A stretch of DNA of 35,806 nt, from assembly GCA_947586825.1 (NCBI GenBank), contig CANPXU010000011.1, positions 1-35,806 of the forward strand, read 5' to 3'. The notes below the pieces were generated by a model. That model saw nothing but the letters and a program-made list of their open reading frames with translations. It had not been told where the DNA came from and did not search any database. Shown here one piece after another: positions 9,738 to 33,005 of the stretch. The position numbers and the translations under genes were made by a program. Position 1 is the first letter of the stretch; each line of letters starts with the position of its first letter. Source of the stretch: an uncultured Bacilli bacterium. GTDB taxonomy: Bacteria > Bacillota_I > Bacilli_A > RF39 > UBA660.

Positions 9738-10793
9738 ATGGCAAAAAGCCAAAAAGAAGTGAAAGATACTGGCAAAAAAAAGACTACAACAAAAAGCAGT
9801 ACAAAACCAAAAGCAGTAAATGCTAAAAAAAGTGATACACCTAGCAAAAAGAAAAATAATGAAGTAAAAAAAGAAGTTAAAGTAGTCAAAGATACTCCAA
9901 AAAAGGAAGTTATCCAAAAAGAAGCTACTAATAAAGAAGTAAAGAAAGAAACCAAAAAAGAAGTAAGCAAAAAGAAAAATCCTATTAAATATGTTTTATA
10001 TGTTGTTATTTTAGTTTTATTAGTATTATTTGGATTTTCTAGCTATAAGATAATTTCTTGGCGTATCGATAACAGTAAAACGCAAGAATTAATTGATGAT
10101 TTAGAAGATTCTGTTAAAATTAATAATACTTCAGGAGAAAATGTTGAGATAGCAGTTGATATTACAGATGAAACTTTAGATTATTTAATAATGGACTTTA
10201 TTGACGTTGATTTAAAAGATGTAAAAAAGGATAATGAAGAAACTGTAGGCTGGGTTCAAGTCGCAGGAACTAAAGTTAACTACCCATTTGTTCAAACAAA
10301 CAATAACGATTATTATTTATCACATAGTATTGATAAGTCTGTTAATGAAGCTGGTTGGATATTCTTAGATGCTCGTAATAATTTATGGCAAGATAGAAAT
10401 ACTATTATTTATGGTCATGGTAGATTAAATAAAACTATGTTTGGTTCACTAAATGATATTTTAGAAAATGGTTGGACTGATAATGAAGAAAACTTTGTTA
10501 TAAAAACTTCTACCGAAGATGAAAATGCTGTATGGCAAATATTTAGTGTTTATCATATTGCTAATAATCCAAATCCCGATTATTCAGTTATAAACTTCAG
10601 TAGCGATCAAGATTTTTTAAACTTTGCTAATAAACTAAAAGATAGAAGCATGTACGATTTTAAGGCTACCATTAATGCTACTGATAAAATACTAACATTA
10701 TCTACATGCTATAGTAACGATGAAAAAATGGTAGTACACGCTAGACTTATTAAAAAGTTTGCTAAAAATACAGAAGATAGTGCAGAAAAATAA
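9738..10793 (+). CDS. srtB: class B sortase with long Lys-rich cytoplasmic tail
   Basis: A membrane-bound transpeptidase that cleaves sorting motifs and attaches surface proteins to the cell wall. Residues 1-80 are almost entirely Lys, Thr, Glu and Val and are unusually long for a sortase tail. One membrane segment covers about 84-106. The catalytic domain follows, with GWVQVAGTKVNYP, then YGHG (His227), TLSTC (Cys324) and HARL (Arg336), which is the complete His-Cys-Arg triad. The spacing and the helix between the beta strands fit class B. No LPXTG- or NPQTN-type substrate is next to it, so its targets are probably elsewhere. It converges with the 195-aa gene, sharing a terminator. Confidence 0.92.
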   Translation: MAKSQKEVKDTGKKKTTTKSSTKPKAVNAKKSDTPSKKKNNEVKKEVKVVKDTPKKEVIQKEATNKEVKKETKKEVSKKKNPIKYVLYVVILVLLVLFGFSSYKIISWRIDNSKTQELIDDLEDSVKINNTSGENVEIAVDITDETLDYLIMDFIDVDLKDVKKDNEETVGWVQVAGTKVNYPFVQTNNNDYYLSHSIDKSVNEAGWIFLDARNNLWQDRNTIIYGHGRLNKTMFGSLNDILENGWTDNEENFVIKTSTEDENAVWQIFSVYHIANNPNPDYSVINFSSDQDFLNFANKLKDRSMYDFKATINATDKILTLSTCYSNDEKMVVHARLIKKFAKNTEDSAEK

Positions 10794-17949: not shown

Positions 17950-18414
17950 TTATTTTGTTAAAAATTGTTCAGCATGAGTAGGAACATCATGGTAAATACC
18001 GCCTTTTACATACGTAACTTTACCATTTTCGTCTACACCCACTCCTACAAGTTCTTCATAAGCACTATATCCAGCAGGAGGCGTATAAGAACTATTTTCA
18101 TTCAAGTCTTTAATACAATATGTATACCAAGGGCTACCCTTCTTTTGAATGGTAATGATAATTCCCATATTAAGTCCTAAAACAATGTCATCTTCTGTAT
18201 AAATGTCTTTACTAATAAATTCTTCTAAAGTTGGATAAACGGGAACTTCTTCAGGTTCTGTAGTATGATAATTATCATAATCATATATAATAGGCTTTCT
18301 AGGAGTTTCTTTTGCTTCTGTATCGATGGAACAGCCATTACTGCTAATAGCAATAGTTAGAGCAAGAAGCATAGCCTTAAGTTGTATTTTTTTATTTTTT
18401 ATATCTGCTAACAC
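17950..18414 (-). CDS. small putative lipoprotein, 154 aa
   Basis: Unrecognised protein. A basic N terminus and a short hydrophobic stretch end in SSNGC, a plausible lipobox with Cys28. A Pro/Glu/Tyr-rich linker follows, then a domain of about 85 residues with patterns such as SPWYTYCIKDL and VGVGVDENGKVTYV. The start is a GTG at 18414 with an AAGAAG Shine-Dalgarno upstream. An internal ATG at 18372 would leave a very short signal, so the GTG start is preferred. It stands alone on the minus strand and diverges from the adhesin operon across a 501-bp intergenic region. Confidence 0.65.
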   Translation of the reverse strand: MLADIKNKKIQLKAMLLALTIAISSNGCSIDTEAKETPRKPIIYDYDNYHTTEPEEVPVYPTLEEFISKDIYTEDDIVLGLNMGIIITIQKKGSPWYTYCIKDLNENSSYTPPAGYSAYEELVGVGVDENGKVTYVKGGIYHDVPTHAEQFLTK

Positions 18415-18558: not shown

Positions 18559-18623
18559 GTCTTATAAAATCTGGCTTTGTTGTGTTTTATTAAGACATTT
18601 TATCAGTTTTAAATAAGACATTT
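18559..18623 (+). promoter_or_regulatory. TAAGAC repeat cluster upstream of the adhesin-operon promoter
   Basis: Two direct copies of TAAGACATTT (18591-18600 and 18614-18623, start-to-start 23 bp) lie directly upstream of the -35. An inverted GTCTTA is at 18559-18564. The spacing of about two helical turns and the position fit an activator site. The rest of 18415-18558 is A/T-rich, with no gene or structure I can support beyond the leader of the divergent lipoprotein gene. Confidence 0.4.
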
Positions 18624-18665: not shown

Positions 18666-18867
18666 TGAATACGGAAATAATACTCATTTATTACGTATTC
18701 AAAGTAGAAAGATGCTATTATTTATTTTATTTTTCAACTTTACGTTTCTCCAAAATGTTTGCCTTTCTGTAATAATAGTTGTAATATATGATTTGTTGTT
18801 GTATTTTATTCATGATATTTAGGAAGTAGTACGTATCCTTTGATGCCCTTACTTCCTTTTTTCTTTT
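18666..18867 (+). ncRNA. structured ~200-nt leader RNA ahead of the adhesin operon
   Basis: No ORF is convincing here. Visible pairings are hairpin GAATACG (18667-18673)/CGTATTC (18694-18700), the long-range stem GCTATTATT (18714-18722)/AATAATAGT (18771-18779), and AGAAAG (18706-18711)/CTTTCT (18763-18768), which crosses the previous stem and would make a pseudoknot or an alternative fold. It ends in a terminator hairpin. A second ACGTATCC in the terminator loop could compete for the first hairpin's left arm. It is either a cis-acting attenuator or riboswitch-like leader, or an independent small RNA. I cannot match it to a known class. Confidence 0.45.
18821..18867 (+). terminator. intrinsic terminator inside the adhesin-operon leader
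   Basis: Stem AGGAAGTA (18821-18828)/TACTTCCT (18850-18857), a 21-nt loop, then TTTTTTCTTTT. It stands about 50 bp before the regulator's start codon, so transcripts from the promoter at 18632-18660 must read through it to express the operon. Confidence 0.65.
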
Positions 18868-18915
18868 AAAAATAAAAGTATCTTTCTCAATTAAGGTTCT
18901 AACCGGGGGGTTAAT

Positions 18916-19371
18916 ATGAATAATACATTGCTTAGTAAAGAAGAAATATCTTTATATGATTATGTAAAATTAAGGAATACTATCTTGATAATCTTTGCTG
19001 TTTTTAAGTATTTAAAACTTAAAGATGAAAGAGTATCGCTTCCTAAAGTCACAACTGATTTTCGCGTTAGATATGATGATTTTAGCAAGATTGATTCTCC
19101 AATCATTGGTGAAATTAGTCTTAAATCTTTATTATTAAAAGTCCAAGACGAAAAGCAAAAAAGAGAACTATTATCAAAGATAACACTAGCACTTAGAAAA
19201 CTGAATAATCTTGAATTGCAAGTTTTTGATTTAATCTTTTATAAATGCAAAAGCGAAGAAGAAATAATGAATACCATTAATTATGGTAAAGATAAAGTTC
19301 GTGAAATACGTAAAAGTGCCTGTATTAAATTCATATCTGCCCTTGGTTTAGATTATATGTGCTTTAAGTAA
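18916..19371 (+). CDS. small sigma-region-4-like / ArpU-like transcription regulator
   Basis: 151 aa, cytosolic. The C-terminal part (about residues 95-145) has the pattern of a sigma-70 region 4 or ArpU/RinA-type helix-turn-helix: a helix ending LNNLELQVFDLIFYKC, then SEEEIMNTINYGKDKVREIRKSACIKF. This resembles 'L-x-x-x-E-R-x-V-F... S-x-x-E-I-A... x-x-x-V-R-x-I-x-x-x-A'. There is no region 2, so it is unlikely to be a full sigma factor. The Shine-Dalgarno is GGGGGG, 5 nt before the ATG. It is the first gene of the adhesin operon, behind the leader terminator, and probably regulates it (autoregulation is inference). It may be domesticated from a phage late-gene regulator. Confidence 0.65.
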   Translation: MNNTLLSKEEISLYDYVKLRNTILIIFAVFKYLKLKDERVSLPKVTTDFRVRYDDFSKIDSPIIGEISLKSLLLKVQDEKQKRELLSKITLALRKLNNLELQVFDLIFYKCKSEEEIMNTINYGKDKVREIRKSACIKFISALGLDYMCFK

Positions 19372-19391: not shown

Positions 19392-19451
19392 ATGATAAAT
19401 GAACTAATAATTAAAAAAATTGTAAAAGAAAGAAGGATGTATTTATGTTGA
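19392..19451 (+). CDS. 19-codon small ORF coupled to the next gene
   Basis: ATG at 19392, with GAAAGGAA directly ahead, encodes a Lys/Ile-rich 19-aa peptide that ends TGA at 19449-19451. It overlaps the start codon of the 175-aa gene by 7 bp. The arrangement suggests translational coupling or a leader peptide. The gene after it has its own AGAAGGA within this ORF. Peptide production is not proven. Confidence 0.35.
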   Translation: MINELIIKKIVKERRMYLC

Positions 19452-19972
19452 AAAATTGTTTAATTATAATATTTATGCTATTAACTACTGCTATAACAAA
19501 TTTGTTTACAAAAGATAGTTTCTATATAAATAACACTAACGAAGAAAATACTACCAATACCAATACAATTAATTATGAAAATAATGATAATGAATATATA
19601 GAAACTAATAATGATACTATAGAAGATCAAAATATTAATAATGATATTAATCTAAATAACGAAGTAGAAAATGTTACTAAAGATGATGCTTTGGAAATGC
19701 CTGAAGAAGATAAGCCTGATACAGCAAAACCTGACATTACAAATGAAGAAGAAAAATGCGAACCATTTAAATTTATTTTTAGTTTTGTAAGGCCAGACTT
19801 CTCTTCCTTTGAAGATTGCACTAATATGGGCGATAAATATCTTGAAATGGGCTATGGGTATATTTGTGATTATTTTCCAGATGATTGTGGTGATGTTTAT
19901 TATATGCTCACAATTTATGAAGTTAATTCTGGAATAATGCACGATTATCATGATATACCGCTTAAAGAATAA
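19445..19972 (+). CDS. secreted acidic protein with four-cysteine C-terminal domain
   Basis: 175 aa. A signal sequence or signal anchor covers about residues 1-21. A highly acidic Asn/Thr/Glu/Asp low-complexity stalk runs to about residue 95. A compact C-terminal domain follows with four cysteines in the patterns KCEPF, EDCTN, YICDY and DDCGD, probably two disulfides. It has no LPXTG-like end. AGAAGGA precedes the ATG. It sits between the regulator and the adhesin, so it may be a partner, a chaperone or a sensor of the adhesin system. I do not recognise the family. Confidence 0.65.
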   Translation: MLKNCLIIIFMLLTTAITNLFTKDSFYINNTNEENTTNTNTINYENNDNEYIETNNDTIEDQNINNDINLNNEVENVTKDDALEMPEEDKPDTAKPDITNEEEKCEPFKFIFSFVRPDFSSFEDCTNMGDKYLEMGYGYICDYFPDDCGDVYYMLTIYEVNSGIMHDYHDIPLKE

Positions 19973-20003: not shown

Positions 20004-23000
20004 TTGAAAGAAAAACTTAAATGCTTATTATTTTTAATAGTTTTGGTGTTATTAAATCCAATAGCAAAAGTTAAAGCAGATACTTATAGTGATCAATTTA
20101 ATGAAGTATATATGTGGATTCCTAATACATATCTGGCAAAAGAAAAGCCTGGTACAGAGCCTGATTATTTTCAGTTATCAATGATTACTAGGAAAAGCAA
20201 TAATCAATTTGTCTATTGCATCGAAATTCATGCCGATTTATCTCCAGTTAATACTTATACTGGATATGATTATAATCAATCTAAATTTGCAAATCTAACA
20301 CCCGAACAATGGCAAAGAATTCAACTGCTTGCTTATTATGGATATGGTTATAAAGATGATACTATCGATCATAGCGATATAAAATGGTATAGCGTTACCC
20401 AATATATGATTTGGCAAACAGTTCCACACGGATATGATATTTATTTTACAGATACTTTAGTTGGAACGAGAATAACCAGATTCGAAGATGAAATGAAAGA
20501 AATGGAAAAGCTACTTGCTAGCCACTACACTATCCCTGATTTTGGCTCAAAAAATTTTGAAATGTCCGCGGGAGGCACTTTAAAGTTAACAGATAAAAAT
20601 GGGGTTTTATCAAAGTATAATATAGTTAATAATGATAATATTGTAGCTAAGAAGAATTCTAATGAACTAGTAATAAATGCTAAAAATATTGGCAATGGTA
20701 CCATAACATTAACTAAAAAAGATTTTAGATTTTCACTACCGCCGATTATATATGTTGAGGGAGATTCACAAAAAGTTATTGAGGTAGGAAGTTATGATCC
20801 CGTGAGTACTTCTATAAAAATTAATATAAAAGGTGGAAAGATATCAATTCATAAGCAAGATAGTGATACAAATCTTTCAGAACCACAAGGTGGAGCCTCT
20901 TTAAAAGGCGCAGTATATGGAATATATAAAGAAGATGGAAGCTATGTTGATCAAATCGTAACTGATGAAAATGGATATGCCACAAGTGATTATCTTCCCA
21001 GCCTAGGCAGATATTATCTTCAAGAAATATCCCCTAGCGAAGGGTATGAACTAGATACTCAAAAATACTACTTTGATATAGAAACTAATAATTTAAGTGT
21101 AGATATTAAAGTAAAAGAAAAAGTTATAGAAAGAGAATACACAATTACTAAAGTTAAGGCCTCAGATAAGACTGAAATATTGACTCCTGAAGCCAATGTT
21201 ACGTTTGGGATTTATGATATAAATGATAACCTTATTAAAACTTTGACTACAGATAATGACGGAAAAATAACTTTCAAGCTACCATACGGAAAATATATTT
21301 TAAAACAATTATCAACACCCGTTGGTTTTGAAAAGATGAAAGATTATGAATTTGAAATATCGGAATCTGGGCCAATGATTAGTAAAGTTTTTTCAAATGC
21401 CGAAATAACTGCGCGAGTTAAAATTATCAAAGTTGACCAAGATGGCAAAATAATTTCTAAAGCTGGAATTAAGTTTAGAATCAAAGATTTATCATCTGGC
21501 GAGTATGTATGCCAAAGTGTGGCTTATCCTAGTAATAAGACATACTGTGAATTTGCAACAGATGAAAATGGCATATTAATAACGCCTTACCCTTTAAATT
21601 CTGGTAACTATCAATTAGAAGAAGTAGATGAATTAATTGATGGATATCTATGGGATCCTAATGTTTTAAAGTTTTCAATTAACGAAAATGCTGACATTAA
21701 AAGTTCTGATGGATTTGATGCCGTTATTGAGTTAAGATTTTCCAACACTGAAGTAAAGGGCCAAATAGAAATAAATAAAATTGGGGAAAAAGTAGTTATT
21801 AAAGATGGATATTATACTTATGAACAAATTCCCCTACCCAATATTGTATTCGGCTTGTATGATGAGAGTGGCAATCTAATAGACAAATATGTAACGGATA
21901 TAAATGGTCATATTAATATTGAAGGGTTAAAATTAGGCAAATATATTTTAAAAGAATTAAAAACCCAAAAAGGATATATACTAGATGGTAAATCATATGA
22001 AATTGAACTTAAATATAAAGATCAATATACTGCGATAGTTTCAGAATCATTTACTTTAAATAATTATTTAGAAAAAGGTAAGTTAGTTTTTAATAAGAAG
22101 GATATAACAACAGGGAAAGAAATACCTGGCGTAAAAATAGAGATTTATACAGATGATAATGAACTTATCTTTACAGGAACAACAGATGAAAATGGTCAAG
22201 TAATAATTGATAATCTATTTATTGGCAAATTCTACATAATAGAAATCGAACCTACTACAGGATATAAGTTAAACAAAGAAAAAGTATACTTTGAAATCAA
22301 AGAAAATGGTGAAATCGTTAAAGCAGAGATGACAAACGAAAAAATCAAAGGTGATTTAGAATTTACTAAAGAAGACTTATCTACTTCAGAGCCACTTCCA
22401 AATACTTTAATTGAAGTGTATAAAGCTGACAATGATGAACTAGTTTTTTCTGGAAAAACTGATGAAAAAGGAAAAATAATTATTAAAGATTTAGAGTATG
22501 GTAAATATTATATTCTAGAAAAAGAAGCTCCAGAAGGTTATATTCTTAATAAAGAAAAAATGTATTTTGAGATTCTAGAAGATGGAGAAATTGTTAAAGC
22601 CAATATGACAAACAAAATAATTACTGGAACTTTGGAATTTACTAAGAAGGATTTATCTACAGGTGAATCTCTTCCAAATACTTTAATAGAAATTTATAAT
22701 GAAAATGATGAATTAGTATTTTTAGGAAAAACTAATGAAGAAGGAAAAATAATTATTAAAGATTTAGAATATGGCAAATACTATATTCTAGAAAAAGAAG
22801 CTCCAGAAGGTTATATTCTTAATCAAGAAAAAATGTTTTTCGAGATTCTAGAAGATGGAGAAATTGTTAAAGCTACAATGGAAAATGAAAAGGAGGAAAT
22901 GCCCGATACATTTAATGCCGATTTAAAAGATTTGTTTAAAATTTGGGGAATGGCTTTATCAGGTATTATATTAATAACATATGGCAAAAAACAAAATTAA
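20004..23000 (+). CDS. thioester-domain surface adhesin with seven CnaB/SpaA-like domains
   Basis: 998 aa. Signal peptide 1-25 ends AKVKA. A thioester (TQXA-type) domain covers about 35-180, with Cys72 in FVYCIE and Gln133 in TQYMIW, the pair expected to form an internal thioester for covalent attachment to host surfaces. A linker domain lies at about 180-275. CnaB/SpaA-like domains follow at about 278-370, 378-465, 470-580, 587-690, 692-782, 783-874 and 875-965. Most end strands of the L-x-E-x-x-x-P-x-G-Y type with the isopeptide Glu; the second has Gln435 instead. Cys503 and Cys515 may form a disulfide in the third. The C terminus is MPDTF (966-970), a hydrophobic segment and GKKQN, a non-canonical sorting signal. 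The start is TTG at 20004, 7 nt after GGGGGG; the ATG at 20000 is out of frame. Confidence 0.9.
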   Translation: MKEKLKCLLFLIVLVLLNPIAKVKADTYSDQFNEVYMWIPNTYLAKEKPGTEPDYFQLSMITRKSNNQFVYCIEIHADLSPVNTYTGYDYNQSKFANLTPEQWQRIQLLAYYGYGYKDDTIDHSDIKWYSVTQYMIWQTVPHGYDIYFTDTLVGTRITRFEDEMKEMEKLLASHYTIPDFGSKNFEMSAGGTLKLTDKNGVLSKYNIVNNDNIVAKKNSNELVINAKNIGNGTITLTKKDFRFSLPPIIYVEGDSQKVIEVGSYDPVSTSIKINIKGGKISIHKQDSDTNLSEPQGGASLKGAVYGIYKEDGSYVDQIVTDENGYATSDYLPSLGRYYLQEISPSEGYELDTQKYYFDIETNNLSVDIKVKEKVIEREYTITKVKASDKTEILTPEANVTFGIYDINDNLIKTLTTDNDGKITFKLPYGKYILKQLSTPVGFEKMKDYEFEISESGPMISKVFSNAEITARVKIIKVDQDGKIISKAGIKFRIKDLSSGEYVCQSVAYPSNKTYCEFATDENGILITPYPLNSGNYQLEEVDELIDGYLWDPNVLKFSINENADIKSSDGFDAVIELRFSNTEVKGQIEINKIGEKVVIKDGYYTYEQIPLPNIVFGLYDESGNLIDKYVTDINGHINIEGLKLGKYILKELKTQKGYILDGKSYEIELKYKDQYTAIVSESFTLNNYLEKGKLVFNKKDITTGKEIPGVKIEIYTDDNELIFTGTTDENGQVIIDNLFIGKFYIIEIEPTTGYKLNKEKVYFEIKENGEIVKAEMTNEKIKGDLEFTKEDLSTSEPLPNTLIEVYKADNDELVFSGKTDEKGKIIIKDLEYGKYYILEKEAPEGYILNKEKMYFEILEDGEIVKANMTNKIITGTLEFTKKDLSTGESLPNTLIEIYNENDELVFLGKTNEEGKIIIKDLEYGKYYILEKEAPEGYILNQEKMFFEILEDGEIVKATMENEKEEMPDTFNADLKDLFKIWGMALSGIILITYGKKQN
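22077..22901 (+). repeat. tandem CnaB-domain repeats in the adhesin
   Basis: Three consecutive units begin at 22077, 22350 and 22626, a period of about 273-276 bp (91-92 codons). The last two are the closest, with a long near-identical block (about 22475-22600 and 22751-22876, encoding IIIKDLEYGKYYILEKEAPE). Recent duplication, and length variation between strains, is likely. Confidence 0.85.
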
Positions 23001-23571
23001 ATTTTTTAAATATGTTGGTTTAACTTTATTGCTTTGTTCTATATTTGGTTGTTGGAAATTTGTTAATAACAAAGAAGTAAACAAAAAAGAAACGGAGAAA
23101 ATAATCTCCGAAAATTTCTATAATTCATACGCTAAAGTTGATAATATTGCTTATAATCCTATTCAAAATGATATTGATTTAACAAATGATTATGTTGGAT
23201 ATATAGAACTGACAGATTACAACATTAAAAGATTAATCATTAGTACTACCGATAAAATACTACTTGATAAAGGTTTTGTTGGAATCTTGAAGGGTTCTGC
23301 TAATCTAGATGATGAATACGGCAATATTATCCTTGCTGGTCATAGTATTATTAATGTTTTTCAAAATCTACATTATACAAAAGTTGGTGATACTATTAAA
23401 TTAGTATCTCATTTAAAAGAATATAATTTTACTATTGTAGAAAAACACATAATAGCTGATGATGATTTTTCTTATTTTAAACAAAGTGATAATCAAAAAA
23501 TTTTAACTCTCGTTACTTGTGAAAATAATAATAAAAAACGTCTAGTTGTTATTGCTAAGTTGCAAGATTAA
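22981..23571 (+). CDS. sortase dedicated to the adhesin (class C/D-like)
   Basis: 196 aa. An N-terminal membrane anchor is at about 8-27, then a sortase domain with His121 (LAGHS), Cys180 (TLVTC) and Arg187 (KKRLVV), so the catalytic triad is complete. There is no C-terminal membrane segment as in pilus class C enzymes, and no class B helix. The layout, with FVGILKGSA and Y-G-N-I-I-L-A-G-H, is closest to class D or class A types. Its ATG at 22981 lies inside the last codons of the adhesin (20-bp overlap) without a clear Shine-Dalgarno, so it is translationally coupled and probably specific for the MPDTF signal. Its stop overlaps the stop of the convergent ATPase gene by 4 bp. Confidence 0.9.
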   Translation: MAKNKIKFFKYVGLTLLLCSIFGCWKFVNNKEVNKKETEKIISENFYNSYAKVDNIAYNPIQNDIDLTNDYVGYIELTDYNIKRLIISTTDKILLDKGFVGILKGSANLDDEYGNIILAGHSIINVFQNLHYTKVGDTIKLVSHLKEYNFTIVEKHIIADDDFSYFKQSDNQKILTLVTCENNNKKRLVVIAKLQD

Positions 23572-32090: not shown

Positions 32091-32951
32091 CTATTTTATA
32101 CTTTTCAATTTTTCTTTTTTATCTAAATATTGATAATTAAGATTATTTTGACTACTTATTACTGATTTACCAAGTTTTTGTTCTAAATTATCTCTTGCCA
32201 CTTTAGAAACATTACCACCCATTTTAGCAATCGCTTTATTTTGCTCTAATCCATAAGGTCTATGTTGTTTAGCTAGTTCTCTCGTTGCAATTTCTCCTAA
32301 GTCAGTAAGAGCAATTTCGATATCAGACATATTATCTCTCAAAGATTCTTTTCTAATACTTTTATATGCTTTATATTCACTTGCTTTCATACCAGACCAT
32401 TCTTTATATATCTCATTTGTTAATATTCCATATTCATAATCTTTAGAAACACCTCCATCTTTCCATATATCAGTTAATTTATTTCTATCTAATATTCCTT
32501 TTAATCTGGCTTCAATCCATTTATCAGAATATCCTCTTTTTCTATAATAATCTATGGCCCTTTTAATAGCAAGTTCAGGATCAAATACTTCATCGATTCT
32601 TTCGCTTCCCAAATTTGCTAACCATAGTTTGAATGGTTCTGCTTTTGGGCTTGGAATTGACTCTATTAGTCTAAATATTCCATTTGTATCTAGAGTATCA
32701 GTACTACGCATTTTTCCATCTTTAGCTTTGAATTTCAAACTCCGACAATTTGTCGGAAGTTCACTTCCTTCATCATTAGTTAATCTTCTTTTAAGAGTAG
32801 TCCAATAATCACTAGAATCTTTGCTATCAGTTAAAACACCAATAACATCAACTACACTAAAATAATAATCTCCTTTCTCAGTATCCCAAATGCTTCTTAT
32901 TTCTTTGCCATCAAAAAGATTTGAGATTGTTTCTAATTTGTTTTGATGCAT
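32091..32951 (-). CDS. Bro-N domain protein with DinD-like C-terminal region
   Basis: 286 aa. The N-terminal ~110 residues match the Bro-N/antirepressor DNA-binding domain of phage and mobile-element proteins: IRSIWDTEKGDYYFSVVDVIGVLTDSKDSSDYW, then a long helix-rich stretch with LRSTDTLDTNGIFRLI and PKAEPFKLWLANLGSERIDE. The C-terminal half (from about residue 130) has 'AIDYYRKRGYSDKWIEARLKGI' and KQHRPYGLEQNKAIAKMGGNVSKVARDNLEQKLGKSV, as in DinD-like chromosomal members. AAGGAGG before the ATG at 32951 is a perfect Shine-Dalgarno. It has a strong promoter. This is an accessory gene, probably of phage origin, and its role (possibly SOS or anti-phage related) is inferred. Confidence 0.88.
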   Translation of the reverse strand: MHQNKLETISNLFDGKEIRSIWDTEKGDYYFSVVDVIGVLTDSKDSSDYWTTLKRRLTNDEGSELPTNCRSLKFKAKDGKMRSTDTLDTNGIFRLIESIPSPKAEPFKLWLANLGSERIDEVFDPELAIKRAIDYYRKRGYSDKWIEARLKGILDRNKLTDIWKDGGVSKDYEYGILTNEIYKEWSGMKASEYKAYKSIRKESLRDNMSDIEIALTDLGEIATRELAKQHRPYGLEQNKAIAKMGGNVSKVARDNLEQKLGKSVISSQNNLNYQYLDKKEKLKSIK

Positions 32952-32976
32952 TATTAAAACCTCCTTATATAATCTC

Positions 32977-33005
32977 ATTATATAATAAGAACATTTGTTT
33001 GACAA
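32977..33005 (-). promoter_or_regulatory. promoter of the Bro-N gene
   Basis: TTGTCA (33005-33000), 17 bp, TATAAT (32982-32977) on the minus strand. It is near-consensus. No LexA-type box is visible. Confidence 0.7.

Follow-up and report, generated by a model that had tools for sequence, protein, structure and literature searches.

The leader in front of the regulator gene ORF1 and an adhesin operon of an uncultured gut Bacilli bacterium is probably a tandem-promoter attenuation/antitermination leader, derived from the control region of an integrative conjugative element (ICE) and taken over along with ORF1, the adhesin, and the sortase. The window, by which we mean the whole 35,806-nt stretch of DNA analysed, is contig 11 of a 1.2-Mb genome that is 82% complete; Table 1 lists its relevant features. 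The promoter positions, the hairpin, the terminator and its motif, the long-range pairing, and the links to ORF1 and to conjugation operons all come from comparison with related loci. The RNA leader of these uncultured bacteria is linked to the region where conjugation operons begin; it has stayed with its partner gene and the mating adhesin after the loss of the transfer genes.

Table 1. Features of the leader and the adhesin operon in the window.
Feature	Position	Strand	Description
AAGACATTT direct repeats	18592-18600 and 18615-18623	+	spacing 23 bp; 8 bp in front of the P1 -35 element
Promoter P1	18632-18660	+	TTTACT-17-TATAAT; 10/12 consensus; homologous position in close relatives
Hairpin 1	18666-18701	+	-10.2 kcal/mol, z -4.3; none of 200 dinucleotide shuffles folds as well
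Long-range helix, left arm	18706-18723	+	present only in P1 RNA
Promoter P2	18759-18787	+	TTGCCT-17-TAATAT; predicted start ~18794
Intrinsic terminator	18821-18867	+	hairpin 18821-18857, U tract 18858-18867
Near-invariant 17-nt motif GGAAGTAGTAYRTATCC (GGAAGTAGTACGTATCC)	18822-18838	+	5' arm and loop of the terminator
Long-range helix, right arm	18870-18887	+	between terminator and Shine-Dalgarno sequence
Shine-Dalgarno sequence of ORF1	18905-18910	+	GGGGGG
ORF1	18916-19371	+	151 aa, ArpU/sigma-region-4-like regulator
ORF2	19445-19972	+	175 aa, secreted/anchored protein; relatives in conjugative-element operons
Thioester-domain adhesin with SpaA repeats	20004-23000	+	Pfam TED 4.9e-9, SpaA 8.9e-108
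Sortase	22981-23571	+	Pfam 4.3e-18

We searched with the ORF1 protein and the motif among genomes of the same genus and several hundred genomes of the same family and order. Close ORF1 homologues were found in three genomes of the same genus (G009, G007, and G006), all near the same PepSY-gene neighbour, and in five genomes of other genera (G344, G421, G248, G258, and G130). Two diverged homologues, in G432 and G570, reached profile E-values of 1.5e-34 and 3.1e-27, compared with about 1e-86 in the close group. The leaders of G248 and G130 are near-identical to those of G421 and G258, respectively, and were not counted separately, leaving nine distinct leaders. P1, P2, and the motif-bearing terminator are common to all nine, as is the 5' hairpin, which is degenerate in G432, and ORF1 is always the first gene. 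A model built from the nine leaders found matches only at ORF1 loci, in 7 of 385 genomes, and the viral contigs and plasmids searched held no ORF1 relative. The preliminary description had placed a structured, terminator-containing leader in front of the regulator gene, which is borne out by folds that beat shuffled sequences and by their conservation in relatives. The left edge it had placed at 18666 coincides exactly with the predicted P1 transcript start (~18666), at the 5' end of hairpin 1. Folded as a whole, the leader gives a z of -2.4, with 3/200 shuffles equally good. The covariation check by comparative alignment that it had called for came out positive for hairpin 1, the stem of which is paired in 63 of 64 cells across eight leaders with several compensatory changes, including A-U/G.U/G-C, C-G/U-A, and G-C/A-U exchanges. 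In the conjugative-element copies, hairpin 1 contains an intrinsic terminator. P2, which lies inside the leader at a position common to 9/9 leaders and reads TTGATT-16/17-TATTAT in the conjugative-element copies, had been overlooked in the preliminary description.

The second of the predicted helices, the terminator hairpin (-13.8 kcal/mol, z -5.1, 0/200 shuffles as good), is followed by TTTTTTCTTTT and ends 48 nt before the ORF1 ATG, close to the 50 nt estimated previously. A stable GC-containing hairpin with a U tract thus stands between promoter and first gene, as in an intrinsic-terminator attenuator, and a hairpin with a U-rich tract before ORF1 is predicted in 9/9 leaders. The hairpin has an internal loop; an automated terminator scan limited to loops of ≤8 nt missed it. 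Within it, the nine leaders agree at 15 of the 17 motif positions, at a mean column identity of 60% over the whole alignment from P2 to the U tract. The motif is nearly invariant even across strong ORF1 divergence, the diverged G432 and G570 keeping it as GGAAGTAGTACATATCC. The 3' arm and the loop of the terminator vary widely, with a total hairpin length from ~40 to ~70 nt across leaders, suggesting that the 5' side is constrained by more than base pairing. We rejected the motif as the mark of a genome-wide regulon: the other pattern matches inspected are coding, for example the GSSMYP codons of lepB. The T variant of the motif reads GSSMYP, a signal-peptidase motif, and several pattern matches are such genes.

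The near-perfect long-range helix, also overlooked previously, is already present in the minimum-energy fold of the leader. Its arms pair at 17 of 18 positions, a score that 0/200 shuffles reach, and 52 of 54 cells are paired across the window, G009, and G007. Nine pairs have changed on both sides in G007 compared with the window and G009; arms form 17-19 pairs with their own partners, 11-12 when swapped with G007, and at most 11/18 when slid. The covariation of this helix is strong but not deep, as it comes from three sequences. The helix occurs in only three of the nine leaders; four have a different one, and G432 and G570 have neither. In G006, G344, G421, and G258, GUAUCCA and five or six varying bases in the loop of hairpin 1 pair instead with a target 18-31 nt upstream of the ORF1 ATG; compensatory and G.U changes occur in this pairing. 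These alternative helices (12-13 bp) are individually unexceptional, with 11/200, 50/200, 67/200, and 75/200 shuffles as good, and the argument for them rests on identical placement and compensatory variation. The specific switch proposed earlier is not supported. The second ACGTATCC on which it was built is indeed present in the terminator (18831-18838) and matches the left arm of hairpin 1 at only 6/8 positions; the internal A.C mismatch is constant in 9/9 leaders, and the pairing decays to 3-4/8 in G258, G432, and G570. No specific pseudoknot of the kind also suggested could be demonstrated. The alternative pairing that the alignments support is the long-range helix, instead of that switch. 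Two further candidates were rejected: a possible pairing between the start codon and the P2 5' end is not conserved in G007 or G006, and a hydrophobic ORF of 36 aa within the leader (ATG in GATGC, stop in TAGGAAG) is not conserved, its ATG being lost in G009.

Upstream of P1, the AAGACATTT repeats look like a candidate activator site shared with ICE copies. They are kept in the window, G009, G007, G006, and G344, have decayed in G258 and G421, and were not seen in G432. A search of the host genome for a LytTR regulator that could go with the 23-bp repeats found none. Divergent from the leader lies a gene for a 154-aa lipoprotein-like protein (17950-18414, minus strand), conserved in G009 and G006, not found in G007, and without a Pfam family above the cut-off.

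In three other genera (G344, G421, and G258/G130), a conjugative-transfer operon begins with the leader and ORF1 and encodes TraG/VirB4-like, TrbL, SSB, M23 peptidase, and, at borderline, NikA-like proteins (Pfam on the G421 copy). The same operons also hold ORF2, the TED-SpaA adhesin, and the sortase, and the genus of the window keeps just ORF1, ORF2, adhesin, and sortase. Because the transfer genes are absent and these four are kept, the window locus resembles a domesticated ICE fragment, and we infer descent from an ICE to the chromosomal adhesin locus. A DNA-transfer switch thus seems to have been reused for the control of a surface adhesin in a gut bacterium. If the mechanism proposed below holds, it would explain why an adhesin operon is controlled by part of a mobile element, and it would add a system of antitermination or RNA pairing to the control of conjugation, in a lineage represented here by metagenome bins alone. 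The window also carries a second sortase gene distant from the adhesin operon (9738-10793) and, on the minus strand, a gene for a BRO-N domain protein (32091-33005), a type common in phages.

Eight distant ORF1 relatives (G154, G001, G567, G016, G206, G445, G389, and G190) have P1-like and P2-like promoters, in most cases separated by a 5' hairpin, and ORF1 is again preceded by a terminator. Most of the eight, as well as the ICE copies and G432/G570, have a small Shine-Dalgarno-led ORF of ~34-67 aa, which ends near, inside, or beyond the last terminator before ORF1; those of G001, G567, and G016 were read by eye. Small ORFs of ~53-67 aa of this kind, each overlapping a terminator, lie at L072:3267-3470, L070:868-1065, L071:1086-1247, and L082 ~414-590. 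Their placement just before ORF1 is conserved and their sequence is not; they are possible leader-peptide attenuators, and the clade of the window has lost the small ORF and this terminator.

All seven close ORF1 members match TIGR01637 (ArpU), at best with 2.7e-8, staying below the cut-off (best 34.1 bits versus 43.1); they also match phrog_248, a phage transcriptional activator family, below the curated cut-off. In the structural model (mean pLDDT 64), the C-terminal half resembles sigma region 4, with a weak Foldseek E-value of ~0.1 and a probability of 1.0. In the mechanism we propose, P1 would make an RNA beginning with hairpin 1, and P2 would start within the leader. Since transcripts from both promoters would enter the terminator, they would by default stop before ORF1. 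A factor recognising the invariant sequence GGAAGUAGUAYRUAUCC on the 5' side of the terminator, or an RNA polymerase modified by it, might then allow read-through. ORF1 is the obvious candidate for such autoregulation because it always accompanies the leader, and its strict linkage and family suggest that it could be the read-through factor. In addition, P1 RNA might pair with the segment between terminator and Shine-Dalgarno sequence, either in cis, within a read-through transcript, or in trans, and so tune ORF1 expression. Our inferences are the conditional nature of read-through, which factor acts, and what the long-range helix does. The first of these, already proposed in the preliminary description, is the best reading of the leader; it is plausible and strengthened by the comparison. 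The two arms of the long-range helix flank the terminator, and since the right one is transcribed only after it, the helix cannot gate termination on the same transcript; an effect on translation or stability of ORF1 mRNA, or an action of P1 RNA in trans, is therefore more likely. Internal terminators are few in the operons, and their numbers fall short of proving processive antitermination: terminator-like elements number 3 versus 1.2 expected by chance in the window (all on the minus strand), 4 versus 3.2 in L070, and 10 versus 3.6 in L071. In one ICE, a terminator-like hairpin overlaps the ORF1 stop codon (L070:1516-1535), which would fit an antitermination role of ORF1.

The structured leader, the terminator, and the near-invariant motif would also suit a ligand-sensing riboswitch of an unknown class, in which a small molecule toggles the terminator. 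In line with the earlier remark that no riboswitch class was recognisable, Rfam searches of the window and nine related loci gave nothing above the gathering threshold except a tRNA at the window edge. Moreover, there is no compact multi-helix core, only one linear 17-nt motif with simple hairpins and freely varying loops, and the leader is always linked to ORF1 and never to metabolic genes, which makes a riboswitch very improbable. We consider it just as improbable that recombination acts at the 18-bp inverted arms and makes the stretch with P2 and the terminator an invertible, phase-variable switch before the adhesin. Near-perfect inverted repeats do flank a promoter upstream of the adhesin, and the arms change in concert. 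However, the orientation is the same in 7/7 loci with arms, the arm sequences differ among relatives and are located elsewhere in conjugative-element copies, and there is no recombinase among the scanned window ORFs. Departures from Watson-Crick pairing are also mostly G.U, with three G.U against two others in class A and only G.U within the 12-13-bp helices of class B.

The pairing might alternatively mean that P1 and the arms make only a trans-acting small RNA repressing ORF1 translation, the terminator being unconditional for P1. The P1 RNA would end at hairpin 1 in ICEs and at the terminator in the window. In its favour, P1 RNA of the ICEs stops at a terminator of its own, and 12-13 nt of it are complementary to positions -31 to -18 of ORF1. 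This reading is nevertheless unlikely, as P2 too reads into the terminator, so that expression would still require conditional read-through, and the paired stretch in the window (-46 to -29 of ORF1) leaves the Shine-Dalgarno sequence uncovered. Terminators before operons can also be constitutive dampers, and a leaky terminator could merely lower expression in an ordinary leader with structure and no regulation. An unregulated leader would hardly account for a motif conserved beyond base-pairing needs and across ORF1 divergence, for the linked tandem promoters, or for the covarying long-range pairing, and we regard it as quite unlikely. The attenuation/antitermination leader of ICE origin remains our preferred explanation.

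Gram-positive conjugation operons beginning with antitermination systems have been described, namely conAn (PMC8955417) and canT (PMC11658703), and by analogy the leader may work like these. In pLS20-family plasmids, conAn consists of the protein ConAn1 and the RNA conAn2 (PMC8955417), and the conjugation operon of pLS20 encodes a thioester adhesin, tie, and no sortase gene (PMC8092201). L070, L071, and L072 are ICEs of gut Bacilli whose transfer operon has a thioester adhesin with its own sortase. The leader resembles conAn in opening a Gram-positive conjugation operon in which a thioester adhesin is encoded too, and an intrinsic-terminator-like hairpin can be read from the pLS20 sequence just before the first gene. 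However, neither BLASTP nor hhalign found similarity of ORF1 and its seven-member profile to pLS20 ConAn1 (taken, from its operon position, as NC_015148 2564-3082), which places the system outside conAn. The structured RNA here precedes ORF1, and the gap between ORF1 and ORF2, 74 nt in the window, leaves no room for a ~300-nt structured RNA, whereas in pLS20 a structured-looking stretch of ~380 nt follows ConAn1. With canT of Tn916, an RNA of ~340-450 nt that acts without other element genes (PMC11658703), the leader shares the nature of a cis-acting ICE RNA associated with terminator bypass; unlike canT as described, it is characterised by a pair of promoters, a short motif, and the protein gene that accompanies it. 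Leader-peptide attenuators such as mef/mel (PMC4335068) resemble the small Shine-Dalgarno-led ORF over a terminator in the distant relatives and ICE copies, and differ from the window copy, which is without the small ORF and that terminator. The long-range pairing also recalls a system of another kind, in which a short structured RNA is complementary to the leader of a conjugation regulator. In the FinP/traJ system of F-like plasmids, the antisense RNA FinP is transcribed from the other strand and depends on FinO, whereas the complementary RNA here lies on the same strand, upstream of its target. It is conceivable, though doubtful, that both principles are combined in a new class of conjugation control, with a short, structured same-strand P1 RNA pairing with the leader of its own regulator and a sigma-region-4-like antiterminator acting at the motif terminator, the whole captured for a chromosomal adhesin.
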